Virus record (IMG/VR): IMGVR_UViG_3300032160_001448
Location: 1 to 22,399 of that record
Origin: a virus
Reading direction: 5' to 3' (one strand)
Length of the DNA: 22,399 nt
Shown: one piece after another, positions 3,106 through 22,399 of the stretch
How the letters are laid out: every line of letters begins with the position of its first letter
Numbering within the stretch: position 1 is the stretch's first letter
Notes under the pieces: model-generated
The model's input: only the letters and a program-made list of their open reading frames with translations
Told to the model about the DNA's origin: nothing
Database searches by the model: none
Made by a program: the position numbers and the translations under genes

Positions 3106-3144
3106 GCTCGGGCTTAAGCTGAAATGTTCGAGAGGAACATTCAG

Positions 3145-5331: not shown

Positions 5332-5342
5332 CAAGCGCCGTA

Positions 5343-7148
5343 CTATCGGGGCGCCGCGGCCGGCGAGCGATAGAAATCGCGGAGCACATAGTAGGCTGCC
5401 TTCTTCTCCCCGCGGTCGCTGAGGAGGCCTTTGCGGTTGTAGTAATCCTGCACTCCGGTGAGGAAGCGCCGGGGGCAGCGGAAATCCATCAGAATCCAGG
5501 CCGACATACCTTGCAGAAAGGGGATGCGCTGCAACATAGCCATCTGATGGCGGTAGACATTGGCCTGATACTCCTCGGTCCAGGCGGTGGTGGCGTCACC
5601 GTGGCTGCCGGCGGGAGCTTCGGCGCCGAATTCGCTCATCACCAGCGGCTTGTCATAGACGGTTTGGAAGCTGGTGCGGTCGGCCTTCTCGGGTGGTCCA
5701 TCGTACCATCCGATGTACTCGTTACAACCCAGCACGTCGAGGGACTTCCCCAAGGGGTCGTCGATCATGATGGTGTTGGGCGCGCCGCCGTGCGGCAGGG
5801 TGGCGGCGGTGATGAGGCGGGTGGCATCCAGCTCGCGCGCCTTCGTGGCCAGTGAGGAGAGGAACTTGGTGCGAGCGTCGCCAAGCGGGGTTTCATTGGC
5901 TACGGACCACAGGATCACCGAGGCGCGGTTCTTGTCGCGCGAGATCATCTCCGCGAGTTGCCGCTCGGCCTTGGCATAGACCGCCGCATTCTCCCACTGC
6001 ACCGCCCAATAAACAGGAATCTCCGACCAGACCATCAGGCCCATCTCGTCCGCCAGGCGCGTCATCACTTCGTCATGCGGATAGTGGGCCAGGCGGACGA
6101 AATTACATCCCATCTCCTTGGCCCAACCGAGCAGCGTGCGGGCTTCGGCTTCGGAAAAAACGCGGCCTGAGCGGAACGGCGCCTCGGCGTGAATCGCAAC
6201 ACCGCGGAGGAATACGGGCTTGCCATTGAGCAAAATCTTCGTACCCGAGGTTGCGATACCGCGGAAACCGATACGGTCCTGCACGCGATCCGTCTCGGCT
6301 TCCACCGACACTTCATACAACTTGGGATTCTCCGGCGACCACAGCGAGAGCTTGACAGGGAAGGCGAACTGCGCGTAGCCATCCTCGCCGGTCTCGACCG
6401 AAACCGACGCGCCCGCTTCCGCAATGTGGACGACGACCTTCTGCCGTTTGCGCGTGCCATTCAGCCGCACCCAGCCGGCGACACGGTCGAGCGAGCTCTT
6501 CTCCAATTGCACCTGGTAATCCTGGATGAAGGTCTCGGGGACGTCAACCAGTTTCACATCGCGGGTAAGCCCGCCGTAGTTCCACCAATCGGTCATGGTA
6601 GGCGGGACAGCGTCCGGATGGCGTTGGTTGTCCACCTTGACGATCACCGCGTTGGCGCGGTCTTTGAGCAGACCTGTGACTTCGAACTGAAACGGGGTGA
6701 AGCCGCCTTCGTGCTGGCCCAGCTTCTTGCCATTGACGAAGACCACGGCCTTGTAATTGGCGGCGCCAAACCAAAGGAACTGGCGGCGCGGCGTGGCCGG
6801 CAGGGCGTAGTCGAATTCCCGCCGGTACCACATGCTGCCTTCATACCATAGAAGCTCGGGCCTCTGCGTGTTCCAATCGCCGGGCACCTGAAGAGCCGGC
6901 GCGGCAGGAAGAAAGGTGAGCTCGTACTTGTCGCCTTTGTCGCTGGGGACTCGGTTGGCGCCGAGCCCGCCGTCCGGGATGGGGTTGAGGTGGAAATCGT
7001 AATAGCCGGCCTCGTAGGGATCCATTAGCGACTGCCAACGGCCATTGAGGCTCGCGCCATGGCGGGCGGAGGGATTCTGGATCGTGTCGATCTGCTGGGC
7101 GGTTGCGGACCCGGTCAGCGCAAGAAAAAGGATCATGAAGATTCTCAT
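5343..7148 (-). CDS. Secreted GH2 beta-galactosidase/glucuronidase
   Basis: A glycoside hydrolase family 2 retaining exo-enzyme of 601 residues. The N-terminus is a signal peptide (MRIFMILFLALTGSATAQ), so it acts in the periplasm or outside the cell. Next come the sugar-binding jelly roll (about 30-200, with MWYRREFDY and NYKAVVFVNGKKLGQHEGGF), the Ig-like domain (about 205-300) and the TIM barrel (about 300-600). The barrel holds the expected catalytic pair: acid/base E419 in SVANE and nucleophile E506 in VMSEFG; NFVRLAHYPHDE and GLMVWSEIPVYW are also typical. The compact length and SEFG motif are closer to beta-glucuronidase-like GH2 enzymes than to long LacZ, but substrate cannot be read from sequence alone. 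No good ribosome-binding site is seen before the ATG at 7148. It is convergent with the SUMF1-fold gene 11 bp away; joint action on one polysaccharide is possible but not shown. Confidence 0.93.
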   Translation of the reverse strand: MRIFMILFLALTGSATAQQIDTIQNPSARHGASLNGRWQSLMDPYEAGYYDFHLNPIPDGGLGANRVPSDKGDKYELTFLPAAPALQVPGDWNTQRPELLWYEGSMWYRREFDYALPATPRRQFLWFGAANYKAVVFVNGKKLGQHEGGFTPFQFEVTGLLKDRANAVIVKVDNQRHPDAVPPTMTDWWNYGGLTRDVKLVDVPETFIQDYQVQLEKSSLDRVAGWVRLNGTRKRQKVVVHIAEAGASVSVETGEDGYAQFAFPVKLSLWSPENPKLYEVSVEAETDRVQDRIGFRGIATSGTKILLNGKPVFLRGVAIHAEAPFRSGRVFSEAEARTLLGWAKEMGCNFVRLAHYPHDEVMTRLADEMGLMVWSEIPVYWAVQWENAAVYAKAERQLAEMISRDKNRASVILWSVANETPLGDARTKFLSSLATKARELDATRLITAATLPHGGAPNTIMIDDPLGKSLDVLGCNEYIGWYDGPPEKADRTSFQTVYDKPLVMSEFGAEAPAGSHGDATTAWTEEYQANVYRHQMAMLQRIPFLQGMSAWILMDFRCPRRFLTGVQDYYNRKGLLSDRGEKKAAYYVLRDFYRSPAAAPR

Positions 7149-7299: not shown

Positions 7300-10014
7300 C
7301 TAAGTACCCAGAAATCTCGCTCGCGCGGCTCTCTTATCGAGCGGCAGGGCGTAGCCGATCAGGCACAACTGATCGAGTGCAAACAGCGCCACCGATTCCA
7401 TTCCTGCCGCTAACGCCAGCTTGCGTTCCCGGGCCCACGGCGTGGTGTAATCGCCGACGCCCACCAGATGGCTGCTCTGCGACGCCGGAAAACCGAGCTC
7501 CTGCGGCAACTGGATCGACTGGCGCGCCAAATCCAGATTGCGATCGCCGGTGTAAGTAAAGTTCTCGGTCTTAAGACAAGCCAAATTCGCGGCCGTCCAG
7601 TAGGTTGTCGGGTAGTTGATCAATGTGTTCAACGGCGTGTTATTGACATCCGGCGGATACAGCACCTCAAACTTCGTATCTGGCGCTGACTGCCGGACAA
7701 AAGTCATGATCGCCTGGGTGAATTGGCCGATTATACCTGGCAAGAAAGCACACTCGTCTGGATAGGAGGCCGGGTCGGCATTCTGGCTGGGAATAACCGC
7801 CATCGCATGCCCGTAATCTGTCTGAAAGGCCGAGGTCGTGTGGGCGTCATAAAACGGCATGCCGCCATGTGCCGCCGTGTACCACCACTGAACCTCGCCG
7901 AATTGCAGATACGGCGGAACGCCTGCCTCCAGCATGATCTGCGCCATGTCGAGGTACGCCTGCTCCCAGAACGCCGTGCTCTCTGGTCCGAAGTTGGTTT
8001 GTAAAGCTGGCGTGCTTACTGTGCAGGCGGTGCCGTCCGGATAACGTTGAGCAATTCCCGCGCCAGTGCTCTGGTCCCCGTTACCGAGTTCCATGCTGAA
8101 TGCCGCGGTGGCGCTGATGCCATAACCTTTCAGGGCCTTGAAAAAGCTAAGACTCCAGTCCCGGGCCGCGCGGTTGATCCGCGGCACGGCGGTCAGATCC
8201 GTGACCCATGTTCCATCTTGACCGCCCGAAAGCGAGCTCGTCGCCAGACTGGCAGTGAACTGCGTACTGTTGGTATTGACGCCTAGACCAATGCTGTTGC
8301 CGCTTGATCCCAAAAGCCGTGAAGTGATCGTGAGGCTGGCGCCGCTGGCTTGAGCCCACACCTCGCTCGAGCCCGCGTTGATCAACAGTTCGAAGCAGGT
8401 GGCGATGCTTTCCGCCGTGTCGCCGATCAGATTCCAGTGCAGCAGCGCCGTACCGTCGAGTTCAACCTCGGTCTTCCCACCGGAGCCAAACTCCGGCTGT
8501 CCCGCGAAAGTGATCGTCGCCGATGCGTACTGGTTCCCTTGGCACGCCAGCTCATAGAACAGTAGCGCTCCCGCATAGTGGTTCAATCGGCCCCGCAATC
8601 CCAAGGTGTCGACCAGCCACGCGGTTCGTTCAGGGGCGAGCGCCAGAGAATGGTTTGTATCCCAGTCCGTCGCCGCCGCTGTCGTGGGCATCGCGCTGAA
8701 CGTCGGCAGATCGCTTGCCGGCACGGCGACCTCCAGAAAGTCGAAGTACACCGAGGTGCCTGCCGTTCCGGAATGGGTCACGCTGACGATATGTGTGACC
8801 GCCGCAGTCTGTTGCCCCAGCGATACCCGCATCAGCACATCTTCGCCTCCCAGCGCCAGGCTGATTACGATCAGCGCGCCGTCGTCTACCTGCACCGTGG
8901 CCTGTCCACCGCCCGTTAGTGCCCGCGTGCCTAGATACAAGATGTGGGCAAACGTCGAAACATAGGAGCAGGCGACGGCAGAGCCTGGCGTTGTCGTCGA
9001 GTGTATGGAACCGCCCGAGTAGTTTCCTATCTCGGACACCCAGCTGCCGGTGTAGGTGAGCGTCGGGGAATCGTCTTCGATCCGGCGGCTGCCAGGCCCC
9101 GCTACTTGATATTGCTGGCCGGTCCCGGTCACGGTCCAATTCGACACGACCACTGAGAATTCGCCTCGTTGAAAATCCGCCGTCTGCACGTCCGCCGCCC
9201 AGGTCCATCGCAACTTCCGAATGTTCGTTAGATTTGCGGCGGGAATCGGGACGCCGTTCAAATCCGTCAGGTTTGCAAAGTCGAGACTCACTTGCCACGC
9301 GGCAGGCGACACACCGTCCTGGAACAACGCGGAAGCCGGTTCCCAGGATTCTGTTCCGGCACCATGCACGGTCCCATACACGCCAATCCGGTTTCCGTTT
9401 GATCCCGGCACTCCGAAATACGTGAGCGTAATCGTCGGACCGTCCGCCGCGGCGCTAACCAGGCCGGTTTGCTGATTCGCGGTGATAATGCCGGCTAAAG
9501 CCGCCGCCGCGCTGCTCAGAGTATCTCCGGGCACAAACTGGTAATTGTAGTGCTGGCCCAGCCATGCCAGTTCGATATAGTCTCCGGCTGTTGGCGTGCC
9601 CTGCAATTCGAAGTGCCTTGTGGCAGGAACCGCGCCCGACAATGCCGTCGCATACTGCAGTAAAGGGACTTCGTAGATCTGTTCCCCGCCGCCGTTGTCC
9701 GCCCAGATCCTGAGATGGGGCCATGCTACCGTCGGATACCACGTAGAATCAAAACCGATGCAGTTAGTGCGGACTTCCTTGTAAGACAGCCGCAATCCAC
9801 TCAGGTTTCCGTCGGGAAGATTACGCAGGGCAGGGTATTCGAAGACGTCGTCCCGGTTCCATTCGAGCACCGCCCAGTCGAATTGGCTCCGCCAGCAACC
9901 GGAAACCGTGAATCCAGTCGGGCTCGTCTCGCTCAAGGCCGCGATCGCCGATGGCTCAAAGAAGTAACACTGCAGATCCCGGTCGGGACGGAGTTTGGAC
10001 AGTGTATCGCCCAT
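7300..10014 (-). CDS. Tail-tip protein with C-terminal GH-like TIM barrel
   Basis: A 904-residue virion protein, last gene of the operon; its ATG overlaps the hub stop codon by one base (TGATG), indicating coupled translation. Seen in order: an N-terminal domain (1-130); a module at about 133-235 with DTLSSAAAALAGIITANQQT and GVPGSNGNRIGV; a beta-rich domain at about 319-435 (YTGSWVSEIG, VQVDDG, FDFLEVAVP) like a carbohydrate-binding jelly roll; a second copy of the first module at about 495-600 (DTAESIATCFELLINAG, LLGSSGNSIGLGV, LSGGQDG); and a TIM-barrel-like end at about 606-890. Possible catalytic acids of the barrel are E707 in QFGEVQWWY and E783 in KFEVLYPP. RcGTA and related tails also end with a glycosidase-like barrel protein (gp15, GTA TIM domain), which supports host-surface glycan recognition or hydrolysis. 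Whether it is enzymatically active is inference. Confidence 0.7.
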   Translation of the reverse strand: MGDTLSKLRPDRDLQCYFFEPSAIAALSETSPTGFTVSGCWRSQFDWAVLEWNRDDVFEYPALRNLPDGNLSGLRLSYKEVRTNCIGFDSTWYPTVAWPHLRIWADNGGGEQIYEVPLLQYATALSGAVPATRHFELQGTPTAGDYIELAWLGQHYNYQFVPGDTLSSAAAALAGIITANQQTGLVSAAADGPTITLTYFGVPGSNGNRIGVYGTVHGAGTESWEPASALFQDGVSPAAWQVSLDFANLTDLNGVPIPAANLTNIRKLRWTWAADVQTADFQRGEFSVVVSNWTVTGTGQQYQVAGPGSRRIEDDSPTLTYTGSWVSEIGNYSGGSIHSTTTPGSAVACSYVSTFAHILYLGTRALTGGGQATVQVDDGALIVISLALGGEDVLMRVSLGQQTAAVTHIVSVTHSGTAGTSVYFDFLEVAVPASDLPTFSAMPTTAAATDWDTNHSLALAPERTAWLVDTLGLRGRLNHYAGALLFYELACQGNQYASATITFAGQPEFGSGGKTEVELDGTALLHWNLIGDTAESIATCFELLINAGSSEVWAQASGASLTITSRLLGSSGNSIGLGVNTNSTQFTASLATSSLSGGQDGTWVTDLTAVPRINRAARDWSLSFFKALKGYGISATAAFSMELGNGDQSTGAGIAQRYPDGTACTVSTPALQTNFGPESTAFWEQAYLDMAQIMLEAGVPPYLQFGEVQWWYTAAHGGMPFYDAHTTSAFQTDYGHAMAVIPSQNADPASYPDECAFLPGIIGQFTQAIMTFVRQSAPDTKFEVLYPPDVNNTPLNTLINYPTTYWTAANLACLKTENFTYTGDRNLDLARQSIQLPQELGFPASQSSHLVGVGDYTTPWARERKLALAAGMESVALFALDQLCLIGYALPLDKRAARARFLGT

Positions 10015-13004
10015 CAGAGTCGGATGATTACCGTGAGGTCGGCGCCTGGATAGGTTTGCCCCACGGATTGGACCGCCAGCGTGATCTGATCGCCCGCCGC
10101 CAGAGGCGGCAGATTTCGCCCGCTAACATCGTTGGAAATAGTCTCGTTTGCCTGAAACTCCAACTGGCAGTATGCCGACCCGTTAACGTTCAGTTGGAGT
10201 TGCACCGGCGCGTCGGCCGCTGCGCCGAGCACCGCGTAGACGTCTCCGACCGAGTGCGCCGCTTCAACCACCAGGGCCGGTGCCGCCGATTGGTCTACCG
10301 ACAGGAACCCGTCCACCTGAATCGAGTACTGACCGCCCGACAGCGTCCGTAAGCCGCTATCGACCGTGTGCGTCAGGCATGCGCTCGCCGTCGGACTGTT
10401 CCCTTTTTGGTTGGTAACGAACAGTTGCGCGCTCGCCACCCGCACGTCCGGAAGCGGTACGGGAAAGCTCCAGGTGCCGCTATAGGGGCTGCCAAAGAAT
10501 CCTTGCGCAAACCCAGCGATCGCCGTTTGGCCGGTCAGGTGAAAGACGGCTGCCTGCGCCGCGTGCGCGCTCGCTGGGCTGCTATGCACGCCTCTCTGAA
10601 CCGCATACTGAACCCCGCCCTCGGTAACAGCGGTGACCTCGAGTACCTCGCTTTCGATCTGCAAAACACCGCCGGCCTGGGCCGATCCTGCAACGTTCAG
10701 CGTCAAGGTCGTGTCGCTCGCCCCGATAGCGTCGGCGAGCGCGAAGCTGGTGGCGCCCTGCAGTTCGTCCCAATAGTAAACCGCCAGCGTCGCAGCTGAG
10801 ATCGTCTCCGTGTCGGTCAGGCCGCTGAAGGAGACTCCGCTCAACTCCAGCGTCCCGCCGCCCTTTCCAGCACCCAGGCCAAAGAACGGCGCCGGCGGCG
10901 CGGCGCTGTCGCTGAATCCGCTTCCCCCAATCTGCCACCGCGTCACTGTCGATAGCGCTGGAGGGCATTCCACGTTGGCCGCGTTCGCCGACCGCCCCGT
11001 CACCTGAACCGTTTCGCCTCCTTGATTGGGGACAACGAAGCTCACCGGGCTGCTCTTGGTCATTGCTCCAAAATGCCAACCCGATTCCGCCACCACGAAG
11101 TGGCTGGTCGCGTCCGGTTCGACGACCCAAGTTCCCGAGAGAGTCAGCATGGTCGCGTTGTTGCTCGCAATCGATGCCTCCTGCCCGGCGCCGGTCCCCC
11201 GCGTGACACGCGCCGTCATTCCCCGGTAGTTGTTTGGGTCCATCTCAAGGTTCTCATTGCCCACCGTGGTCGGCGAAAAGATCGTGGCCGCCATCTCCGG
11301 CTGGAGTTCCATGCGCCAATAGAAATTCGCATGGTCGAAATTCGTATCCGGCGGGGCAATCAATTGAGGCTGTGCGCCGCAATCGGTGAAGCTCGTCCCC
11401 ATCGTCTGGTCCGAGGCGATTCGTAACAACTCGGCAGGCGTTGTCCCGCGGTAGACATTGAAGCTGCTGGTGCCGGGAGCGAAACTGAGCCCCGTTAGCG
11501 TCACCGAAGACCTATCGCTCGCAATCACTGCCGTTACGATGAACGAAAGTGCGCCCTCGTCTCCCGCCGCATCCACGCCGGAAACCGCGTAGTACAAAAC
11601 CTGACTTGCCGCAAGTGTGCCGCCCGTTCCAATCGTCGCCGCCAGGCTCACCAGCGGCACGCCAGGTCCTGTTGCGGTCGCGGCCGCCGGCGCGACAAAA
11701 GTTGCAGCCAGGTTTGCCTGAATCGTCCCGTCGCTGCTCGTCGTGTCCGTCTCGCTAATGCCAAAGTCCACCAGTCCGTTCGCGTTCACCACGCTCCCCA
11801 GCAGGGGCCTCGGGATGCCAATGGTGGCTGTTCCCTGCTGGTTCGCGCCCGCTGCCGCGCTGTCTTGCCCATTCGAGTCGAGATACCAGGCATCGTCATG
11901 AATCTGCGCCGTAATTACTGCAGTCCGGTAGTTAGTTGACGGAGATATCTTGAGGACGCGAAATGGCTGCCGGTTGAAGCCTTCCTTTTGATACGTGACA
12001 GTGATCAGGTCCCCAGGCCGGATCCCGAAACCCTTGACGCTCGTCTCAAACTGGATATAGGTGTTGCCCCGCAGCGACTTGTCCAGGTTGAATTGGAGAA
12101 TTCGGGCGGCCTGGTCGTAATCGGGCAACCCAATCGCCATCAACGTGGCGGTCACTTGTTGGCCGGTCAGGGCCACATCGTCCGGATCCACGACCGTGTA
12201 ACTATCCTGCTGAAAGCCGTTCAGGTCGTCTTGAAAGTCTATGCTCAGAGAGTTCGGCGTGTCCGCGATGTTGCGCGATGAAACCACCACACTCGGCTCG
12301 CCCGTGGATTTCCGCAGGATTCCCGATACGCCCGTGGTCCCGTCGCCAAATTCGTAAACCGGCCATCCCCCGTTCAGCGATTCGGTGCTGTTGGACCAAG
12401 GGTTTTGCGTCGGCTGCTGTAGGGCGAGCGAGTTTTCGACGTTGATCTGCAAGACGCCCCCCGAACCGTAAGTCAAATACAGGCGTGAGGCATTGCGAAT
12501 TCCTCGAATCACATCGCCTGCGCTGCGCCTGTTCTGCAGTACCATGTTGCAGCGAAATCGGGAGATGCTAATGGCGTTACCGTTCAGATCCGTCGAGTTG
12601 ATTGACTCGTCGCAATACGCCGCTGCGGTCGCCAGGCTCGAGTAATCGATCTCGCTAGCCTGCCACCCGCTGCGCCGCAGTATGTCATGAAGAACCCAAA
12701 CGGGATTGCTGGTGAACTCGTCGCCTATTTTGTTCCCTTGCGCGTCATAGCTGGGCACCACCAGCCCTTGCACCAGAACCTGCACCGAAGGGAGCGAGAT
12801 CCCGTCGCTGATTTGATTCGGCACCACCACCGACAGGTACGCCATGCCGCCATAGGGATCTCCGGCCGGCTGACCGCTAGAGTTCAGGAAGTTGAGATCG
12901 AATGCGCCGTCTCGCGTTCCTAGCGTGGGAATGTTGTACCATCCGGTACCGGTCATATTCTGCCCGTTCACGCCGAGCGGAATCTGATAACCATTCGCCA
13001 GCAC
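10014..13004 (-). CDS. Tail hub/tail protein, C-terminal frame (Phage-tail_3-like)
   Basis: This 996-codon frame begins at a GTG with no ribosome-binding site. Its first residues, read back across the six-G run, complete the preceding frame as SIQG-VLTVLANGYQIPLGV, the G-x-I-x-G-V-x-x-V-x-x-N pattern usual in hub/tail-tip proteins. It is therefore most likely the C-terminal part of one protein of about 1293 residues. Residues about 95-375 look like the Phage-tail_3 type hub (CDESINSTDLNG, RFRCNMVLQNRRSAGDVIRGI, GFGIRPGDLITVTYQKEGF). Residues about 448-548 form an Ig/FN3-like domain (LYYAVSGVDAAGDEGALS, SSFNVYRG, TSFTDCG). The rest (about 555-996) is beta-rich and unidentified. Such proteins sit at the tail end below the distal-tail ring. 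The stop overlaps the start of the tail-tip gene. Confidence 0.75.
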   Translation of the reverse strand: MLANGYQIPLGVNGQNMTGTGWYNIPTLGTRDGAFDLNFLNSSGQPAGDPYGGMAYLSVVVPNQISDGISLPSVQVLVQGLVVPSYDAQGNKIGDEFTSNPVWVLHDILRRSGWQASEIDYSSLATAAAYCDESINSTDLNGNAISISRFRCNMVLQNRRSAGDVIRGIRNASRLYLTYGSGGVLQINVENSLALQQPTQNPWSNSTESLNGGWPVYEFGDGTTGVSGILRKSTGEPSVVVSSRNIADTPNSLSIDFQDDLNGFQQDSYTVVDPDDVALTGQQVTATLMAIGLPDYDQAARILQFNLDKSLRGNTYIQFETSVKGFGIRPGDLITVTYQKEGFNRQPFRVLKISPSTNYRTAVITAQIHDDAWYLDSNGQDSAAAGANQQGTATIGIPRPLLGSVVNANGLVDFGISETDTTSSDGTIQANLAATFVAPAAATATGPGVPLVSLAATIGTGGTLAASQVLYYAVSGVDAAGDEGALSFIVTAVIASDRSSVTLTGLSFAPGTSSFNVYRGTTPAELLRIASDQTMGTSFTDCGAQPQLIAPPDTNFDHANFYWRMELQPEMAATIFSPTTVGNENLEMDPNNYRGMTARVTRGTGAGQEASIASNNATMLTLSGTWVVEPDATSHFVVAESGWHFGAMTKSSPVSFVVPNQGGETVQVTGRSANAANVECPPALSTVTRWQIGGSGFSDSAAPPAPFFGLGAGKGGGTLELSGVSFSGLTDTETISAATLAVYYWDELQGATSFALADAIGASDTTLTLNVAGSAQAGGVLQIESEVLEVTAVTEGGVQYAVQRGVHSSPASAHAAQAAVFHLTGQTAIAGFAQGFFGSPYSGTWSFPVPLPDVRVASAQLFVTNQKGNSPTASACLTHTVDSGLRTLSGGQYSIQVDGFLSVDQSAAPALVVEAAHSVGDVYAVLGAAADAPVQLQLNVNGSAYCQLEFQANETISNDVSGRNLPPLAAGDQITLAVQSVGQTYPGADLTVIIRL

Positions 13005-13896
13005 CGTCAGGACCCCCCTGAATCGACCCGATGCCTAGCAGCACCTCCATCCGCGTCAGGTTGCCGTCGTTGCGTGCGAATACGACGGGTGGATTGTACC
13101 AGGCCGTTCCATGCGCCATCGGAACGTAGTCGTTGTAACGCGCCTGATTCACTGCCACAGCGGAGCTCGTCCAGTTCTTGCCGTAGCCTCGCACTGCAAT
13201 CACCGGAGGAATGTATTCAATTCCCGCGAATCGCGTGAACATCCCGCGGGCCTGGCAGTCTGTCGAGGTGTGCCCGCACGAGGTAAACGGCGCACCGTTA
13301 TTCAGGCTGCCACAGCCCCCTGGAAGGCCAGCCGAGTAACCGCACGGATAGTAAAGGGAGTAACTGCCCTCTGCGCCCCCATTGATGGCTTCCTGTTGTT
13401 GAGCGGGCGTTGACGGGAATGTCCAGGGGCACCGGCGCTGAATCCGTATTTCGGGCAGAAACATCCGCTGCAAGCTCATCCGGTTCGTCGCCGTTACGCG
13501 AAAGGTCGCTTCCTTGACTTGATCCGGAGGGTTACAGATCCCCTGGAACACTACGACGGCGTCCGTCAGCGGCGTGTTGTTGCGTAAATCGTAGAACACG
13601 AAGCTGACGGTAAGTTTCGCACCCCGGAAGCCCGTGCTCTGTTCAATTTCCGAAAAGTGTGAGTCCGCGTTGGCCAGCAGCAGCGTGATCGTCGGGCTCC
13701 CGTCGACACCCTGGTCGGAAGCGGTCTGAATATCGAACGCGCTGTGTTGCAGTACACGGGGGGCGTACGACGTGCCTCCAATGGCGATGCCGTGCGTGCA
13801 CCAATGTTCGCTTTCTCCGTTCGGCAGAGCACAGTCGAATATTACCAGCGGCGTGTCGGCGACCGCACACTCCTTCAACTCAGAGACTGTCTGCAT
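12877..13896 (-). CDS. Tail hub protein, N-terminal frame (DUF2163-like)
   Basis: A 339-codon frame whose first about 293 residues resemble DUF2163/RcGTA gp13-type hub proteins: TPLVIFDCALPNGESEHWCT, an early beta-barrel with SPTITLLLANADSHFSEIE and VVFQGICNPPDQVKEATFRV, and then an insertion rich in cysteine (RRCPW, YPCGYSAGLPGGCGS, SCGHTSTDCQARG) like the C-rich zinc/iron-cluster-type loop of that family. It ends with HGTAWYNPPVVFARNDGNLTR and MEVLLGIGSIQG. The last about 46 residues after Q293 are basic, low-similarity out-of-frame translation (SARRERAEYDRYRM). The true continuation is in the other frame, so this entry and the following large frame are one gene. It overlaps the end of the second Dit-like gene by 17 bases. 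Confidence 0.75.
   Translation of the reverse strand: MQTVSELKECAVADTPLVIFDCALPNGESEHWCTHGIAIGGTSYAPRVLQHSAFDIQTASDQGVDGSPTITLLLANADSHFSEIEQSTGFRGAKLTVSFVFYDLRNNTPLTDAVVVFQGICNPPDQVKEATFRVTATNRMSLQRMFLPEIRIQRRCPWTFPSTPAQQQEAINGGAEGSYSLYYPCGYSAGLPGGCGSLNNGAPFTSCGHTSTDCQARGMFTRFAGIEYIPPVIAVRGYGKNWTSSAVAVNQARYNDYVPMAHGTAWYNPPVVFARNDGNLTRMEVLLGIGSIQGGPDGAGEWLSDSARRERAEYDRYRMVQHSHARNARRRIRSQLPEL
13013..13018 (-). other. Six-G run at the frame change of the hub gene
   Basis: On the coding (minus) strand the hub reads CAG GGG GGT CCT in the upstream frame; the downstream frame needs CAG GGG GTC CTG. Removing one G, or a +1 or -2 ribosomal shift here, joins the two frames exactly where protein similarity passes from one to the other (after Q293). 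The cause may be a homopolymer sequencing error, a real inactivating insertion or recoding. No stop codon or stem-loop of the usual recoding type is seen next to it, so an indel is the simpler explanation. Confidence 0.65.
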
Positions 13897-14662
13897 AGAA
13901 TATAGTCACCGTTGCGGAGTGATGGTTCACGTCGGTGGAAGTGAAAGTGAACTCATCGTCGCGGAAGCGCGCGTTCTCATAAACCCCTCCCGCCGTTCCG
14001 GTTTTGTACGCCGACGGCGCCGGCTGAGCTTCCACCTGCGGCCCGAACACGCTGACTGTGGTTCCCGCCGGAAGTTCAATCCCGAATTCGATCGCGCTCG
14101 CCGCAGCGTCTCCCGTGCCGGCGATCTGAATGCGGCTCCACCGTGAGTTCAGCGCGGCCTGCACGGAGTTGCTTCCGAGCAACAGCCGTATCGTCAAGGG
14201 CTGCATGCTGAACGCATATACGCTGAAGCAGTACGTGTAACTGGCCGGCGCGTTCAGCGTCTGCGTCAGGGCCTGCGCCCCTTCTCCGCAGTTTGCCAGT
14301 TGCCACGCGCTGCTGCCGCCCAGCGGGTCCGTCACGCCGCCCGATACAGTCAGAAACGGCGCCGCCTGCCAGACCGTGTTGGTCAGATCCTCGCTCCAGC
14401 CGATCAGGTTCGCCGTCGGGTCAAGGAACGTGAAGGTGTTCAGTGACCCTTCCATAGCCGTGAAGAACTGCTGTAACGCACCTGACTCTGTATCGCTGAG
14501 ATTGGAATACTGCAGCTGCCACTCGACGGTTGCGCCGGCGGGGTCCGCCAGCTTGATGGAACTTCCGTCTGCCGCCGCATTCACCACGGTGCGCGGTCTT
14601 CGGCGCTTCACAACTGGAAATTGGCTCACTGCCCCGGTTACTAACTGCGGATATACATTCAT
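13880..14662 (-). CDS. Distal tail (DUF2460-like) protein with C-terminal beta-sandwich
   Basis: The start is placed at the ATG at 14662 (MNVYPQLVTG): GAGG lies 6 bases upstream and the preceding stop is two bases away; the longer open frame to 14755 has no support. It is 260 residues. Residues 1-85 are clearly related to the preceding gene product: YPQLVTGAVSQFP, then LSDTESGALQQFF and FTFLDP. This is the DUF2460/phage minor tail type domain of distal-tail ring proteins (RcGTA gp12). Unlike its neighbour it then carries about 130 residues of beta-sandwich (YTYCFSVYAFSMQPL, TTVSVFGPQVEAQPAPSAY) resembling carbohydrate-binding domains, before the terminal FRDDEFTFTSTDVNHH segment. It probably forms part of the tail-end ring, with the extra domain facing outwards. 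Confidence 0.7.
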   Translation of the reverse strand: MNVYPQLVTGAVSQFPVVKRRRPRTVVNAAADGSSIKLADPAGATVEWQLQYSNLSDTESGALQQFFTAMEGSLNTFTFLDPTANLIGWSEDLTNTVWQAAPFLTVSGGVTDPLGGSSAWQLANCGEGAQALTQTLNAPASYTYCFSVYAFSMQPLTIRLLLGSNSVQAALNSRWSRIQIAGTGDAAASAIEFGIELPAGTTVSVFGPQVEAQPAPSAYKTGTAGGVYENARFRDDEFTFTSTDVNHHSATVTIFYADSL

Positions 14663-14664
14663 GG

Positions 14665-15024
14665 CTACCCTCGGTTTTCCGTGACAGTAATCGAGGTCCC
14701 GCCGCGCATTTCTTCCACCGAAGTCAGGTCCATGGCATCGTCTGCGAAACTGCAATTGCTGTAAGTCTGGTTATCCCACGGGTCTGTGAAGGAGAAGCTG
14801 CCGAAACTTCCTTGGTTCAATTCCAGAAATCGCTCCAGTGCAGCCATTTCAGTCTCGTCCAGTTCGCTCAGGCAGATCACCCACCGGTGCAGTGGTCCGG
14901 CGCAATCCCGGTATCGCTGCTCGCTCCCATCCACAAATCGCGCTACCTGGTTCCGGAACGTGACCGCTTTGGTTGCCGGATACTGCGCGACCGCGCTGGT
15001 CTTTAGAGTTGGGAACGAAGCCAT
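14665..15024 (-). CDS. Distal tail (DUF2460/minor tail-like) protein
   Basis: A 119-residue protein, one base after the tape-measure stop (TGA-C-ATG), so presumably translated by coupling; no separate ribosome-binding site is apparent. The sequence SFPTLKTSAVAQYPATK, then HRWVICLSELDETEMAALER, FLELNQGSFGSFSFTDPWD and a final ITVTENRG fits a DUF2460/phage minor tail (lambda M-like) fold. This type of protein binds the end of the tail tube beneath the tape measure. Position between tape measure and hub agrees with the RcGTA gp11-gp12-gp13 order. It is a shorter paralogue of the next gene. Confidence 0.7.
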   Translation of the reverse strand: MASFPTLKTSAVAQYPATKAVTFRNQVARFVDGSEQRYRDCAGPLHRWVICLSELDETEMAALERFLELNQGSFGSFSFTDPWDNQTYSNCSFADDAMDLTSVEEMRGGTSITVTENRG

Positions 15025-15025
15025 G

Positions 15026-15613
15026 TCACAGGTCGCTAATCACGTCGTTGATCGTGCTCATGTTTAGCATCGCGCTGCGTACTGCCTGCGCGATGTCGCC
15101 GCTCCGGTCCAGAATAGACTGCGCATCCATCGCCTGTATGTTCACCGTCACTTGCGGCATTGGTGTTCCGCTCTGCCCGGCGCTGTTTCCATTTCCCGCC
15201 GCGGAGGAGCCGCTGGCTCCGAAGGAACCTGCAGCCGTCGAGGTCGGCAGCGGGGTATCGGCTAGCCGCGGCATCCCCAACTGGTCATAGTCCGCCGCCA
15301 CCAGTCCGTTCGGCGTATCCGCACTCATAAAGTCGATTGCAGAAGGCTGCTGGTACTTCTCGAGTTGAGGGGGAGCCGAACTGCCCCCGCCGAACAATCC
15401 CAACAGGCTGCTCACCAGCGGAACAATCCCAAGCCCGCCTTCTAAAAACGTCGTCAGTGCCGATTCGATAGTGCTCCCGGTCCCGCCCGTACTTTGTGCC
15501 GCGCTGTCCGCGCCGCCCTTAGTGCTCGTGCCCACGGGAGTCGCTTCGTAACCCTGGCCGTGAGGACCATCGCTTATCGGACCGGGCGCTGGGCTGGAAG
15601 CGGCGTCCGCCAA
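15026..15613 (-). CDS. Very short tail tape-measure-like protein
   Basis: 195 residues, reading from a TTG at 15613, eleven bases after the chaperone-extension stop; no in-frame ATG lies near. Residues 1-50 are flexible (G, S, T, A, P). A hydrophobic stretch follows (about 58-76, GGLGIVPLVSSLLGLFGG), as in tape measures that later enter the membrane. Another low-complexity linker (120-150) comes before the C-terminal block from 155 (VTVNIQAMDAQSILDRSGDI, AVRSAMLNMSTINDVI). That C-terminal block is the typical end of tape-measure proteins in siphophages and GTAs. Position directly after the frameshifted chaperone and before the Dit-like proteins is the classical tape-measure slot. The length is far below ordinary tape measures (often 600-2000 residues) but comparable to the short one of RcGTA, predicting a stubby tail. 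Confidence 0.65.
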   Translation of the reverse strand: MADAASSPAPGPISDGPHGQGYEATPVGTSTKGGADSAAQSTGGTGSTIESALTTFLEGGLGIVPLVSSLLGLFGGGSSAPPQLEKYQQPSAIDFMSADTPNGLVAADYDQLGMPRLADTPLPTSTAAGSFGASGSSAAGNGNSAGQSGTPMPQVTVNIQAMDAQSILDRSGDIAQAVRSAMLNMSTINDVISDL

Positions 15614-15624
15614 CGGGCTTTCGG

Positions 15625-15990
15625 TCAGTCCGTCAGTCTGCTTCGCAGCGGAGCTACCCGAAAAATCCGTTCCGGCCGCCTCCGCGCCGCGAGTTCCTTT
15701 TCCAGAATGGCGAACGCTTCAACCTGCCGCGCCGTGAGATGCTCTTCGTTCATCAGGCCCAGCCGCCTTCGAACAAAAAACTCCTCCACCGTCGTTTGGC
15801 TCTCCGCAGTGATCAACGACTTGGGGCACGTCCCCAGGCTCACCCCTCTGCGCGCCCACACCGGTGGCCCGCCTTCGTCTACCACCGGCAGCCAGCCGCA
15901 CCTGCGCTTTACTTCCAGGCCGGACTTCCGGCAAACGTCGCACCTCCACCCGGCCTGGTTGGAGAATTGAAAATGAAAGGCGACGATTAG
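15625..15990 (-). CDS. -1 frameshift extension of tail-assembly chaperone (GT-like)
   Basis: A 121-codon reading frame starting at the CTA codon that follows the slippery heptamer, ending at TGA just before the tape measure. It has no ATG, GTG or TTG near its 5' end, and the frame upstream of the slip site gives only glycine/arginine-rich noise. It is therefore reached by -1 slippage from the preceding gene, making a product of about 242 residues. The segment begins IVAFHFQFSNQAGWRCDVC and carries four cysteines (CDVC, RRCGW, GTCPKS) suggestive of a small metal knuckle. It then has a helical part (TVEEFFVRRRLGL, LTARQVEAFAILEKELAARR). In lambda the corresponding T part of gpGT binds the tail tube protein while the G part binds the tape measure. 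Confidence 0.7.
   Translation of the reverse strand, partial: LIVAFHFQFSNQAGWRCDVCRKSGLEVKRRCGWLPVVDEGGPPVWARRGVSLGTCPKSLITAESQTTVEEFFVRRRLGLMNEEHLTARQVEAFAILEKELAARRRPERIFRVAPLRSRLTD
15915..15958 (-). other. Perfect 9-bp inverted repeat downstream of slip site
   Basis: Arms CCAGGCCGG at 15958-15950 and CCGGCCTGG at 15923-15915 (minus strand) pair perfectly, extendable by a G-U pair, around a loop of about 26 bases. It begins 31 bases past the slippery heptamer. Stimulatory structures usually lie 5-9 bases away, so a role in recoding is uncertain; it lies inside the extension coding region. Confidence 0.4.
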
Positions 15991-16352
15991 TTTTTTCGTT
16001 CTACAACGCTCAAGCCCGTCTCGGCCTTGACGGCCGCCAGCGCTTCCCGAAACAAGTCTTCGGGTCCGCTTTCCGCCAGCGCCGCCGGTGTTGCCGCCGC
16101 CCCGTCTAGCGCCAGGCCGGAGACCTCCACCAGGCCCCACACCAGATACAACCGGTCGACCTCGGCCTGCACCAGCGCCGCTTCCATTTTTCCGCCCGGC
16201 TCCTGGCCCGCCTCCAGAAACTCCACGCGCCGCGCCAGCTCCCGCACCTGCCGCATCAGTTCCACGCGCCGCGCAAAAGACATCCGCGCGATGCGGTACC
16301 TGACTTCCGGCGCTATCTTCGACTCCACATCCTTCACGCTCTCGTATGTCAT
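15987..16352 (-). CDS. Tail-assembly chaperone, short product (G-like)
   Basis: 121 residues from the ATG at 16352, one base after the tail-tube stop (TAG-C-ATG); a TTG at 16361 in the same frame would overlap the tube gene and is less likely. The protein is mostly helical and charged (YRIARMSFARRVELMRQVRE, LARRVEFLEAGQEPGGKMEA), with a second block (VDRLYLVWGLVEVSGLALDG) and a C-terminus (SGPEDLFREALAAVKAETGL) ending VVERKN at the slip site. No family is recognised by sequence alone. The assignment rests on position between tube and tape measure and on the recoding signal at its end. It would hold the tape measure in an assembly-competent form during tail building; the zero-frame product should be the abundant form. 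Confidence 0.7.
   Translation of the reverse strand: MTYESVKDVESKIAPEVRYRIARMSFARRVELMRQVRELARRVEFLEAGQEPGGKMEAALVQAEVDRLYLVWGLVEVSGLALDGAAATPAALAESGPEDLFREALAAVKAETGLSVVERKN
15990..15996 (-). promoter_or_regulatory. Programmed -1 frameshift slippery site A AAA AAC
   Basis: The minus strand reads CGA AAA AAC TAA in the zero frame, i.e. a perfect X XXY YYZ heptamer in the correct phase, with the zero-frame stop codon (TAA, 15989-15987) directly after it. Slipping back one base pairs both tRNAs on AAA AAA and continues into CTA ATC GTC, the open extension frame. Location between tail tube and tape measure is where nearly all long-tailed phages recode their chaperone pair. Confidence 0.75.
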
Positions 16353-16353
16353 G

Positions 16354-17523
16354 CTATCCAAACGCGACCGCGATTTCGTCGTCTACCGTGCCCTGCGCCC
16401 GCGATGGCTTGAACGCCCATTGCAGCCGGTTCGCGCTGTCGTCAAACTGCGGAACCTCCGGAATCACGCTTTGCAGGTGCACGCCCATCACCTGGTTCTG
16501 CAACTGGCCGAGTTGGAACATCACGCTGATTGGCGTTTGCCGCCGCGCCGCCTGGTACAACGCCGCTGTCGCGCTGTCGGTCTGGCTGTAAAGTCCGATC
16601 GATGCCTCCACCGTTCTTTGTCCCGGCGCGATCGCTTGTGGAAGGCTGAAGCCGAATTCCCGCGACCGCGTGTCCAGCCCGTTCTTCAGCACCACCGACG
16701 CTTCCGTCACCGTGAAGAATTGCGCTGGCTCAGTTCCCAGCCACGCCTGCCCCAGGTTGCCCGGCACAATCGAATAGTCGAATGCGCCGATCGCCGGCTC
16801 CAACGGATAGCTCATCAAATTGCCGGCTCCCGGCGTGAAGCTGGCGCTGTCCAGCACATCCTGCGCCACGCCACTGAAATGGAACTCGTGAAAATCGCCG
16901 TTGATTTGGATCTCCATCTGATCCACTGCGGCGCCGCTCAGGATTCGTTGCACCGCGCTCGCCGGGTCCCAGTAATCGAACACGCTGGCGCTTGGCAGCT
17001 CCGTCGCCGGGCGGTAAGTCACGGCCGCGCCAATCGTCGTTCCACTCGCTGGTGCAGCCGTGAACGGCGCGTTGATCTGCACCGTGTTCGCGTCCACCAC
17101 CACTGTCACAAAGCGTATCTCGCCCCCGCTGGAGACCGCCTGGTTTACGTTCAGCCCGTGAGGCGATGCGAAGGCCAGCGTCGTGTTCGAGTACGAGCCC
17201 ACCACCCCGCCATTGAAAACCAGTGGCGCCGCTCCCAATGCCGCCTGAAACAACGGCCCGTACGCTGGGGCGCCCGCTGCCGGTTGCCAGCTCGTCATGT
17301 ACGTCTGCAAATCGAAAGTCGTGCGGCGTCGGCCGCCCGCCGGCAAACCGGGAAACGTCCGGCTCCCCGTCTTGTCTTTCCGGTTTGTGACCTCGGACTG
17401 CTGCTGCACCGTCAGCTTGAGCGCCGGTATCCGGTTGCTTGCCACGATCGCCGCCACGCTGCCGTACCCGCTCTCCAGCGCCGCATAGAAGCGGTTTGCG
17501 TTTGAGGAAATGTAAGAAGCCAT
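16354..17523 (-). CDS. Major tail tube protein
   Basis: 389 residues. Just inside the N-terminus comes a conserved-looking stretch typical of tube proteins (KTGSRTFPGLPAGGRRRTTF followed by LQTYMTSW and GPLFQAALGA), where a beta-sandwich subunit forms the ring. It includes an insertion with GLNVNQAVSSGG and NTVQINAPFTAAPASGTTIG (about 130-175) that looks like an added surface beta-domain. It continues with MEIQINGDFHEFHFSGVAQDV and a C-terminal part ending VDDEIAVAFG. No sheath-like features were seen, so the tail is presumably non-contractile. It starts one base after the preceding stop (TAA-G-ATG), with GGAGTGAG some 11 bases upstream. Position before the chaperone/tape-measure pair supports the call; the assignment comes from context and general sequence character, not a database match. 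Confidence 0.7.
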   Translation of the reverse strand: MASYISSNANRFYAALESGYGSVAAIVASNRIPALKLTVQQQSEVTNRKDKTGSRTFPGLPAGGRRRTTFDLQTYMTSWQPAAGAPAYGPLFQAALGAAPLVFNGGVVGSYSNTTLAFASPHGLNVNQAVSSGGEIRFVTVVVDANTVQINAPFTAAPASGTTIGAAVTYRPATELPSASVFDYWDPASAVQRILSGAAVDQMEIQINGDFHEFHFSGVAQDVLDSASFTPGAGNLMSYPLEPAIGAFDYSIVPGNLGQAWLGTEPAQFFTVTEASVVLKNGLDTRSREFGFSLPQAIAPGQRTVEASIGLYSQTDSATAALYQAARRQTPISVMFQLGQLQNQVMGVHLQSVIPEVPQFDDSANRLQWAFKPSRAQGTVDDEIAVAFG

Positions 17524-19342: not shown

Positions 19343-20248
19343 CTAGGTGTTGACCTGTACGCCGCACGCGTTGCGCAGCACGCCGCATCCGTACAGCACG
19401 TCCACCGTGAACTGCTGCGCCAGCGTGTTCGGCTGGTAGCTCATCACTACCCGCATGCCGAAGTTGCCCAACTCGGCGTACTCCGCAATCGCTCCCGTTC
19501 CCGGAAGAGGCTGTGGCAGCCGGCGAACCACCAGGCCGATCGCGTCCCGTGTGAACGCCAGGTTGTGTGTGTTCACCGGGCTGCTCCCTGTCTTCGGCAC
19601 GAATTGCGAGCGGAACACGTAGAAGTCTTTGTACTTGCCGATCGTCCCGTCAATCAATGCCGCCAGGCCGGCCGCGCCCGCCGTCTGGAACTCCTCAAAC
19701 AGCGGAATCTGTCGCCATGCAGAGTAGGCCGCCGCGTCCACCACGATGTACTTCGGCTCGTTGGGAGGCACCTTGGCCATGAACAGAGCGGTCTCCGCCG
19801 CATCCACCGTAGCTTCCGTCAGCGCCGAGCCCGGTGTTCCTACCGTCGTCGTGAAGCTTGCGTACAGGTTCAGCAGGTCGGTTTCGATCTTCTGCGCGAT
19901 CGCCGCCACTGCCGGCTGCATGTAGATCTTCAGCAAATCCGGTACCGCCAGCACCTTCGTCACGTCCGGAATCTGGAAAGTCGCCTCCGCGTGCGTGTTC
20001 AGTACGATCTGCGCGTTGCCCAGACTCGGATTCTGCGGCGTCACCGTGCTGCCGTCCGCGATGTTGTTGGCTTGCATCGTCGGCGGTATCGGCACGTTCA
20101 CCGTATCGCCGGCATTTGCCAGCACCGGTTCGTAATCCCGATTGACCAGGTTGCCCATCACCAGGTTCCCTACCAGCACCGGCAGAGCGTCCGCCGCCAC
20201 CAGCTTCACAATCGCGCTTGCGACGTTATTGGTTGTAATTGCTCCCAT
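19343..20248 (-). CDS. Major capsid protein (P22 coat-like HK97 fold)
   Basis: 301 residues, with a strong ribosome-binding site (AAGGAG, 6 bases before the ATG at 20248), as expected for an abundant structural protein. Segments such as LVMGNLVNRDYEPVLANAGD, TVNVPIPPTMQANNI, LNTHAEATFQIPDV and IETDLLNLYASFTT fit the P22 gp5-like coat family. The segments YIVVDAAAYSAWRQIPLFEE, DFYVFRSQFVPK and NLAFTRDAIGLVVRRLPQPL are the usual substrate-like tail of that family. It has no N-terminal prohead-protease-cleaved delta domain, which matches the presence of a separate scaffold gene upstream and the lack of a protease in view. It forms the icosahedral shell that encloses the DNA. Confidence 0.85.
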   Translation of the reverse strand: MGAITTNNVASAIVKLVAADALPVLVGNLVMGNLVNRDYEPVLANAGDTVNVPIPPTMQANNIADGSTVTPQNPSLGNAQIVLNTHAEATFQIPDVTKVLAVPDLLKIYMQPAVAAIAQKIETDLLNLYASFTTTVGTPGSALTEATVDAAETALFMAKVPPNEPKYIVVDAAAYSAWRQIPLFEEFQTAGAAGLAALIDGTIGKYKDFYVFRSQFVPKTGSSPVNTHNLAFTRDAIGLVVRRLPQPLPGTGAIAEYAELGNFGMRVVMSYQPNTLAQQFTVDVLYGCGVLRNACGVQVNT

Positions 20249-20295: not shown

Positions 20296-20847
20296 CTACA
20301 GACCCTTTAAGGTCTGCGACGCCACGCGCACGATTTCTTCTCGTACCCGCCGCATATCTTCCGCGCTCATGCCCGGCCGGATTCGGTCGAGCGTCACCGC
20401 CTCGCCACCGCCTGCGGGGCTTTTCAGCATTGCTGCCATTCCGCTTCCCCCGGGGATGCGCGCCGGCAGAAATTCCGGATTCTCTTTCACGAACGCCGCC
20501 AGGTACTCGCGAACCGGCAGTTCGCCGCTCTCACTCCGCGCCACCAGCCGACCGTCCTCGTTCCGCACGATCTCGTCCTGCACCGCTTTGAAAGCCAGAT
20601 CCACCTTCGCCACGCCCAGACGCTGCAGTTCCGCCCGCACCGCCGAGGCGCGTTCAGCCTCCTCCGCCACCAGCCGGCTGCGCTTGTTCTCCTCTACCAG
20701 CTCGTTGACCCGGCGTTCCAGTTGCTCCCGTCGCCTTCGCTCTTCCTGCAACTCTGCCTTGTGGGCCGGCTCGGCCTTAGCCTGTTCGTTGTTCACAAAT
20801 TCCTGGATCGCCTGCCGCACGATCGCTTGCACGTCGATTCCTTCCAT
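20296..20847 (-). CDS. Capsid scaffolding protein
   Basis: 183 residues with AGGAG 5 bases before the ATG at 20847. Residues about 20-75 are a charged, heptad-like coiled coil (KAELQEERRRREQLERRVNE, LVEENKRSRLVAEEAERASA). A linker region follows (KVDLAFKAVQDEIVRNEDGR, LPVREYLAAFVKENPEFLPA), then a flexible glycine/proline part and a short basic C-terminal helix (EDMRRVREEIVRVASQTLKG). A long coiled coil ending in a small charged helix, placed directly between portal and coat, is the hallmark of phage scaffolds, whose C-terminal helix binds the coat subunit. Sequence families of scaffolds are poorly conserved, so the call leans on position and architecture. Confidence 0.75.
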   Translation of the reverse strand: MEGIDVQAIVRQAIQEFVNNEQAKAEPAHKAELQEERRRREQLERRVNELVEENKRSRLVAEEAERASAVRAELQRLGVAKVDLAFKAVQDEIVRNEDGRLVARSESGELPVREYLAAFVKENPEFLPARIPGGSGMAAMLKSPAGGGEAVTLDRIRPGMSAEDMRRVREEIVRVASQTLKGL

Positions 20848-20960: not shown

Positions 20961-22337
20961 CTACCCCGCCGCCCCTTCGATCTCTTCCGCCACCCGGCTC
21001 TTCACTTCCTGCCTTGCGTCAGCCAGGTATTGGAACGCCAGCCGCTTGTAGATCTGCTTGGTCAGGGTCGGCGATTGAATGCCAAGGTTCAGCAGCTTTT
21101 GCGCGTCGTTCAACTCCGTACTGAAATCGTCGATGTCGAATTCGTCCATCCCCGCGACGTCGATCGAGACTTCATCCTGCCGCGCCGCCGCCACCGCCCA
21201 CAGCACCTGCTTCATGCTTTCCCGCACCGCCGTCCCATACGCCCCGAGCACCTCGGCGGTGGTCGCGAAGTCCAGTTGTTTGCCCAGCGCCGACTGGTTG
21301 GCCGAACTCGATGCCCCTCCCATCGCCTGGTTGTTCAGATAGCAGACCCGGTAGATTTCATCCTTGAGCTGAACCAGGTTGTCCGCCGCGATCTGATAAA
21401 CCTTCCCCTCTGGCTCCGCGTACCCAAACCGGTCCTCCGGCCCAAGTTGGATGTAATATGACTCGCCCACAATCTGGTTCCACTCCCGTTCCGAGTAGAT
21501 CACCGGCATCGCGAACAGCCCCATCGTCAGCGCCCACGCCAGCGCATTCGACTTGTTGAAGTGTTCCAGTTGCAGCAACGCGGCTTTGTTCATCAGCCAC
21601 AGCCCCTCTGTCACCCGTACCCGGAACAGTGGCACCCGGCCCAGCGAGGCCAGCGCGTGCCGCCCTTCATCGATTCGCTCGATCGGTTTCCCCTCGCCCG
21701 CCTTCCGGTAAACTTGAAAATTCTCTCGGTCGTAGTAGATCCAGCGCGTCTCCTGTTCCCACTTCGCGTCCGTCACCTTCGACTGCTGCAGACACGACGT
21801 CCGGATTACCGCCCAGTCCATCCCTCCATGCGGGTCGTAGTTCCAGTTGATGACTTCGTCCGCGCCATAGTCCACCAGGTATGCGCGCGACGTCCCCGCG
21901 GCGTCTTCCTCCGCTCGCGTCAGCGCCGGCCCCGTCGTCCGCGGAAAGTCCACCACCAGATAGCTCGAGCCGCATACCAGCGCTTCCACAAATCGTTTGC
22001 GGAAAAACTCGCTCAGGCTTGTGCCTTTCAGGTCGCAATCGTTCGCCAGCAGGCTGTAGAAGTTCTTCGCCCCGGCGTCCGTTCCTTCCAGCATCAGCGC
22101 CGGCTCGCGGTGCATCAGCGTCGCCGCGTACCAGTCCACAATCGAACCGATGTAGTTTTGATAAAAGACCCGGCTCAGTCGCTCCTGGTATACCTGGCCC
22201 GGTTCTTTGTGCCGCCGCAAGAGGTACTCTGTGGCGCGCGCCCGCAACTGTTCGCCGCCCAGGTACAGGTCCCTGTAGCGCCGCCACGTCGCCTTTCGCG
22301 CGATGTATTCCGGATGCTCCCGGTTAATCGTCTCCAT
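20961..22337 (-). CDS. Phage portal protein
   Basis: The portal forms the dodecameric ring at the capsid vertex through which DNA enters and leaves and on which the tail is mounted. The product is 458 residues from the ATG at 22337 (METINREHPEYIARKATWRR); an AGGAG lies about 14 bases upstream. The frame stays open to a GTG at 22397 at the window edge, so a longer N-terminus cannot be excluded. Typical portal-like parts are WRRYRDLYLGGEQLRARATE and YLLRRHKEPGQVYQERLSRV near the N-terminus and VDWYAATLMHREP, the first helix of the wing. Further on come NKAALLQLEHFNKSNALAWA and LTMGLFAMPVIYSEREWN, then NNQAMGGASSSANQSALGKQ and a C-terminal helix DARQEVKSRVAEEIEGAAG. This matches the DUF4055-type portal class. 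Terminase genes would be expected just beyond the right edge. Confidence 0.8.
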   Translation of the reverse strand: METINREHPEYIARKATWRRYRDLYLGGEQLRARATEYLLRRHKEPGQVYQERLSRVFYQNYIGSIVDWYAATLMHREPALMLEGTDAGAKNFYSLLANDCDLKGTSLSEFFRKRFVEALVCGSSYLVVDFPRTTGPALTRAEEDAAGTSRAYLVDYGADEVINWNYDPHGGMDWAVIRTSCLQQSKVTDAKWEQETRWIYYDRENFQVYRKAGEGKPIERIDEGRHALASLGRVPLFRVRVTEGLWLMNKAALLQLEHFNKSNALAWALTMGLFAMPVIYSEREWNQIVGESYYIQLGPEDRFGYAEPEGKVYQIAADNLVQLKDEIYRVCYLNNQAMGGASSSANQSALGKQLDFATTAEVLGAYGTAVRESMKQVLWAVAAARQDEVSIDVAGMDEFDIDDFSTELNDAQKLLNLGIQSPTLTKQIYKRLAFQYLADARQEVKSRVAEEIEGAAG

Positions 22338-22399
22338 GTTTAGAACAATCGCTCCTGGCGCTCCCCGATCCTGGGAAGCATTCTGCACTCCTGCCACAG

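Follow-up and report, generated by a model that had tools for sequence, protein, structure and literature searches.

We describe a tail assembly chaperone gene pair that would be expressed through a -1 ribosomal frameshift aided by a downstream RNA pseudoknot, and that appears to belong to a vertically inherited, phage-derived operon resembling a gene transfer agent (GTA) in Bryobacteraceae, a family of soil bacteria. We assign this explanation as a whole a probability of roughly 0.88. It would provide a bacterial -1 frameshift signal whose pseudoknot is backed by covariation and conserved across a bacterial family, in tail chaperones, a gene class without such a structure in the literature that we searched. 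A second implication is a phage-derived particle operon that spans a family of Acidobacteriota, usually in single copy, which makes gene transfer in this major soil phylum directly testable.

The window is the whole stretch of DNA that was analyzed (22,399 nucleotides). On its minus strand, the zero-frame gene ends with the sequence GTA GAA CGA AAA AAC TAA. The features at this junction are as follows.

15987..16352, minus strand: zero-frame gene of 121 amino acids (ORF with ATG at 16352), a probable tail assembly chaperone (G-like)
15990..15996, minus strand: slippery heptamer A AAA AAC, in phase (from conservation in relatives)
15987..15989, minus strand: zero-frame stop TAA, immediately 3' of the heptamer (from junction counts)
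15625..15990, minus strand: -1 frame extension of 121 codons plus stop, a putative T-like domain (from dN/dS and invariant columns)

The codons of the -1 frame run from 15990 to 15628 on the minus strand and are followed by a stop at 15627-15625; the next ORF, which is tape-measure-like, begins just past this stop, at 15613. The two overlapping frames are therefore placed between tail tube and tape measure, as in G/GT-type pairs. A first-pass annotation made from the sequence alone had noted the CGA AAA AAC TAA end with its in-phase heptamer and immediate stop, and also the 121-codon continuation to just before the tape measure; our coordinates confirm both. AAAAAAC is not a rare word in the window (3 occurrences, 1.2 expected), so the heptamer by itself is no evidence. 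The case therefore rests on its phase, its position and its conservation across relatives.

We obtained 219 further loci by scanning viral contigs twice and bacterial genomes once. Of 160 distinct junctions, 159 are readable and one is obscured by a run of N at that position. In 157 of the 159, the first frame carries an in-phase A AAA AA(C/T) close to its end (A AAA AAC in 155, A AAA AAT in 2). A deeper branch, consisting of loci with far weaker matches to the tail-tube profile, has an in-phase heptamer in 27 of 27 readable junctions. Such a conserved slippery site is typical of G/GT-type pairs, and its conservation among homologues, which the first-pass annotation had proposed as a check, bears that annotation out. 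In all heptamer-bearing junctions tabulated, the codon before AAA ends in A (CGA, AGA, ATA, ACA or AAA), and the residue that it encodes differs among relatives (Arg, Lys, Ile or Thr). In the same genes, AAA accounts for 29% of Lys codons, and CGA and AGA together for 22% of Arg codons.

The zero-frame stop directly follows the heptamer in 125 of 133 unique full junctions. In six others it is located one codon later, and in the remaining two it is displaced by 22 and 33 codons; an immediate stop is thus favored, but not required. A Shine-Dalgarno-like stimulator upstream of the site is not clearly conserved (44/133, or 33%, versus a background of 24%). Two junctions depart from the heptamer. 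One locus (L168, 8044-8060) has G AGA AAC in its place and retains the extension and the pseudoknot; possible reasons are decay, an assembly error or a weaker slip site. The other (L158, around 9342-9760) is the sole readable relative without any slip site. Its chaperone gene is followed by other sequence, and the slip site and the extension are lost together. Because both are missing, the extension is not strictly essential in this locus.

Judged from substitution patterns, the extension evolves as a protein, and solely in the -1 frame. Its median dN/dS is 0.143 in that frame, versus 1.83-1.96 in the other two, and is on par with the value of 0.136 for the zero-frame gene. The Ka/Ks comparison that the first-pass annotation had called for therefore gives a low value only where its reading predicts one. 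Residues that are invariant in 77 relatives are Leu1, Trp15 and Cys 17, 20, 31 and 55 of the extension. Because the four cysteines are invariant, it is reasonable to propose a metal-binding T-like domain. An AlphaFold model of the extension has a pLDDT of 91. Neither the extension nor the zero-frame gene matches a family in Pfam or PHROGs, and sequence similarity of the pair to described chaperone families is undetectable with these databases. Foldseek found no PDB fold at E 0.001 or better, and a second structure comparison of the extension with the PDB (VIA) gave no match.

Downstream of the heptamer, we predict an H-type pseudoknot, which is a new finding, absent from the first-pass annotation. 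Its two crossing stems comprise 11-12 bp (stem 1) and 9 bp (stem 2), with loops of about 15, 0-1 and 11-12 nt. Each arm is assigned on the basis of pair covariation.

15974..15985, minus strand: stem 1, 5' arm, 4-5 nt past the heptamer
15936..15948, minus strand: stem 1, 3' arm, with one bulged base
15950..15958, minus strand: stem 2, 5' arm CCAGGCCGG, within the loop of stem 1
15915..15923, minus strand: stem 2, 3' arm CCGGCCTGG

The usual spacer between heptamer and pseudoknot is 5-9 nt, and the spacer of 4-5 nt is at or slightly below this range. Alignments for pair counts were built without use of structure, and they exclude loci with long inserts in the loop, which limits the counts. In an alignment of 70 sequences, 89% of cells are paired. 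This alignment contains 62 double-change cells, versus 28.7 +/- 5.6 after shuffling (0/500 shuffles as high) and at most 32 in slid controls. When the deeper branch is included, 84.7% of cells are paired and 78 double-change cells are found, versus 31.9 +/- 5.0. Support for stem 2 declines in the deep branch (75% of cells paired on this mixed alignment). Stem 1 and stem 2 are each supported when tested alone. On a tree of the tail-tube protein, 31 independent double changes preserve pairing; stem 1 accounts for 16 of them and stem 2 for 15, and slid controls reach at most 2 and 6, respectively. For example, GTC/GAC is replaced by CTC/GAG in L186, by GCC/GGC in L178 and by ATC/GGT in L199, and AGCCCCCGC/GCGGGGGCT is found in L277.

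Codon choice shows a similar pattern. Same-codon excess is highest at the heptamer, at the start of the extension and across the stem 1 5' arm, and it rises again at extension codons ~11-25, which correspond to the 3' arm of stem 1 and to stem 2. Two covarying, crossing stems shortly after a heptamer are the structural hallmark of an H-type stimulator. The region has no match in Rfam, and a search of the open-access literature gave no description of a pseudoknot where a tail chaperone is frameshifted.

Other explanations of the junction were weighed against frameshifting at a pseudoknot. RNA polymerase can slip on A runs, and the first-pass annotation had suggested that the six-A run might also slip in transcription. 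However, the runs usually needed for such slippage are longer than six, and 131 of 133 relatives have neither more nor fewer than six A before the C or T. It is therefore highly unlikely that the fusion arises by transcriptional slippage, which, in addition, would need neither the in-phase XXXYYYZ form nor a downstream pseudoknot. One relative (L190) has a run of ten A at the heptamer, and there transcriptional slippage could add to frameshifting. Separate translation of the extension, whether initiated within its own frame or restarted at the stop, is hardly credible. The two frames do touch, and the -1 frame of the window has an upstream GTG at a distance of 48 codons (ORF 16140-15625); taken literally, the earlier statement that this frame has no start of its own is thus untrue of the window. 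The upstream openness is not conserved among relatives, however, and the statement is true of 46 of 133 junctions, in which the -1 frame, read from the preceding stop to the conserved Trp/Cys, contains no ATG, GTG or TTG. In these junctions, only a change of frame can supply the extension sequence. Moreover, the conserved residues of the extension begin at the slip codon itself, and separate translation leaves the heptamer unexplained.

A different objection is that the stems might be alternative hairpins that form a switch, or that stem 1 might act alone. Minimum-energy folds of single sequences often give just one of the two stems, and the window's two stems, taken singly, have energies of -12.5 and -17.2 kcal/mol. 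Nonetheless, both stems covary independently, and the loops are long enough for an H-type knot located 4-5 nt from the heptamer; we regard a switch or a lone stem as improbable.

Structure prediction provides a clue to the function of the zero-frame protein. Its AlphaFold model, derived from an alignment, has a pLDDT of 84. With Foldseek, the model matches an uncultured phage protein in BFVD (E 1.2e-8), and individually weak matches (E 0.1-2) fall on several BFVD proteins annotated as chaperones of tail assembly or of the tape measure. The HK97 tail assembly chaperone (PDB 2ob9) aligns with the model at 89 of 107 residues, with a Z of 5.3 and an rmsd of 3.9, but with 14% identity. This alignment is one of the two longest among the rows listed, but its Z is below 8 and tied with that of unrelated helical chains. 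The predicted fold thus resembles those of tail-assembly and tape-measure chaperones, a resemblance that is supportive, but not decisive. Because the heptamer, its phase, the nearby stop and -1 coding are conserved, and because the genes lie between tube and tape measure and the first frame is predicted to have a chaperone-like fold, the pair most likely belongs to the lambda G/GT class, as the first-pass annotation had concluded.

We therefore favor frameshifting at a pseudoknot, and propose the following mechanism. Most ribosomes would end the 121-aa chaperone at the stop directly 3' of the heptamer, and a fraction would slip by -1 on A AAA AAC while held by the H-type pseudoknot 4-5 nt downstream. 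Slippage would yield a fusion of ~242 aa carrying the four-cysteine domain. If the pair works as in lambda, the tape measure may be coated by many copies of the short chaperone, and the few long copies may recruit tail-tube subunits. The cluster so served would be a GTA-like operon of phage origin that Bryobacteraceae inherit vertically and that presumably encodes a particle.

The pair shares with lambda gpG/gpGT its position between tube and tape measure, a predicted -1 shift near the end of the first gene and the putative combination of a chaperone with a T-like extension. The lambda slip site is G GGA AAG, whereas that of the present pair is A AAA AAC; the conserved downstream pseudoknot, the four invariant cysteines and the immediate stop likewise set the present pair apart. 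The g-t genes of the haloarchaeal virus HCTV-2 have the same slip site, A AAA AAC, but this virus is archaeal, and a pseudoknot is not mentioned in the consulted sections of the report (PMC5009743). According to the same sections, A_AAA_AAC is weaker than A_AAA_AAG on E. coli ribosomes (PMC5009743), and a stimulating structure would therefore have a purpose. The heptamer, short spacer and H-type pseudoknot with a first stem of 11-12 bp resemble -1 signals of the coronavirus/MMTV type. However, the present signal would act on bacterial ribosomes, and it has no sequence relation to those signals and no Rfam match.

The chaperone pair lies within a block of head genes and genes for a short tail. 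The other genes assigned in the window are as follows.

20961..22397, minus strand: portal-like gene at the window edge (named from its place beside the terminase; co-linear in relatives)
20296..20847, minus strand: scaffold-like gene (named from its place before the capsid gene; co-linear in relatives)
19343..20248, minus strand: P22-type major capsid protein (PF11651, phrog_283)
16354..17523, minus strand: tail tube-like protein (phrog_290 in PHROGs; relatives in 200/237 family genomes)
15026..15613, minus strand: short tape-measure-like protein of 195 aa (C-terminal match to phrog_3779, E 0.0011)
14665..15024, minus strand: DUF2460 tail protein (Pfam)
13880..14755, minus strand: second DUF2460-like tail protein (match below the Pfam cut-off)
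10014..13896, minus strand: baseplate/tail protein (Phage-tail_3 match in a relative)
7300..10014, minus strand: tail protein (a relative matches TIM-barrel_NCTSP)

In relatives, a terminase gene is located upstream of the portal-like gene. The order of the block is therefore terminase, portal-like, scaffold-like, P22-type capsid, head-tail genes and tube, followed by the chaperone pair, short tape measure, two DUF2460 proteins, baseplate and TIM-barrel tail protein. The baseplate gene is a single ORF of ~1,300 aa in relatives and is divided into two in the window (12877-13896 and 10014-13004, minus strand). The cause of this split is a G run near 13,017 that differs by one base, through either a sequencing error or a real break.

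The distribution of this block suggests that it is inherited with its host. Among 237 Bryobacteraceae genomes, 200 carry the tube gene. In a phylum sample of 396 genomes, the ~394 from outside the family gave two weak matches, and there is no match among 50,697 records of isolated phages. Distances between elements correlate with those between host typA genes (Mantel r 0.63-0.80; highest permutation 0.57), although single-gene trees disagree in individual branches. Flanking genes are common to both members in 4 of 4 pairs whose tube identity is at least 90%. An asparagine synthase gene (asnB) occurs on the upstream (terminase) flank in 12 loci (L141, L144-L146, L148, L150-L152, L154, L159, L170 and L220) and marks one old chromosomal site. 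Based on these genomic comparisons, the phage-derived cluster has probably been passed vertically with its host, and it looks like a domesticated, GTA-like element. The literature on gene transfer agents describes such a pattern (PMC9662315, PMC11841831).

An ordinary circulating prophage family would also carry a phage head-tail gene set with terminase, and the cluster is listed as a virus in IMG/VR. In addition, 11 of the 200 genomes have more than one match to the tube gene. However, the other 189 have exactly one, and gene order does not vary across 80 genomes within the reach of their contigs. In three complete genomes, the nearest integrase is more than 500 kb from the block, and in six genomes most scanned neighbor genes, on both sides, match host families. 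Together with the host-like distances and common chromosomal sites, these observations make a circulating prophage family unlikely, though it retains some weight, and we prefer a domesticated element. The more specific proposal, that most species of Bryobacteraceae carry an independently domesticated GTA lineage in which a pseudoknot-stimulated frameshift sets the tail chaperone ratio, has about even odds. Literature searches returned no paper on gene transfer agents in Acidobacteriota.

The element shares with RcGTA, BaGTA and BhGTA a head-tail cluster of the tailed-phage type, vertical inheritance in one host group, the absence of a nearby integrase and DUF2460-type tail proteins. It differs from them in its host phylum and its P22-type capsid. 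Adjacency to typA was considered as a conserved site and rejected, since it is seen in just the two closest genomes; asnB serves better in one clade. Between the tail genes and typA, the window carries genes for a GH2-like hydrolase and a 735-aa protein (3124-7148), both of which are missing there in the closest genomes, L141 and L142.
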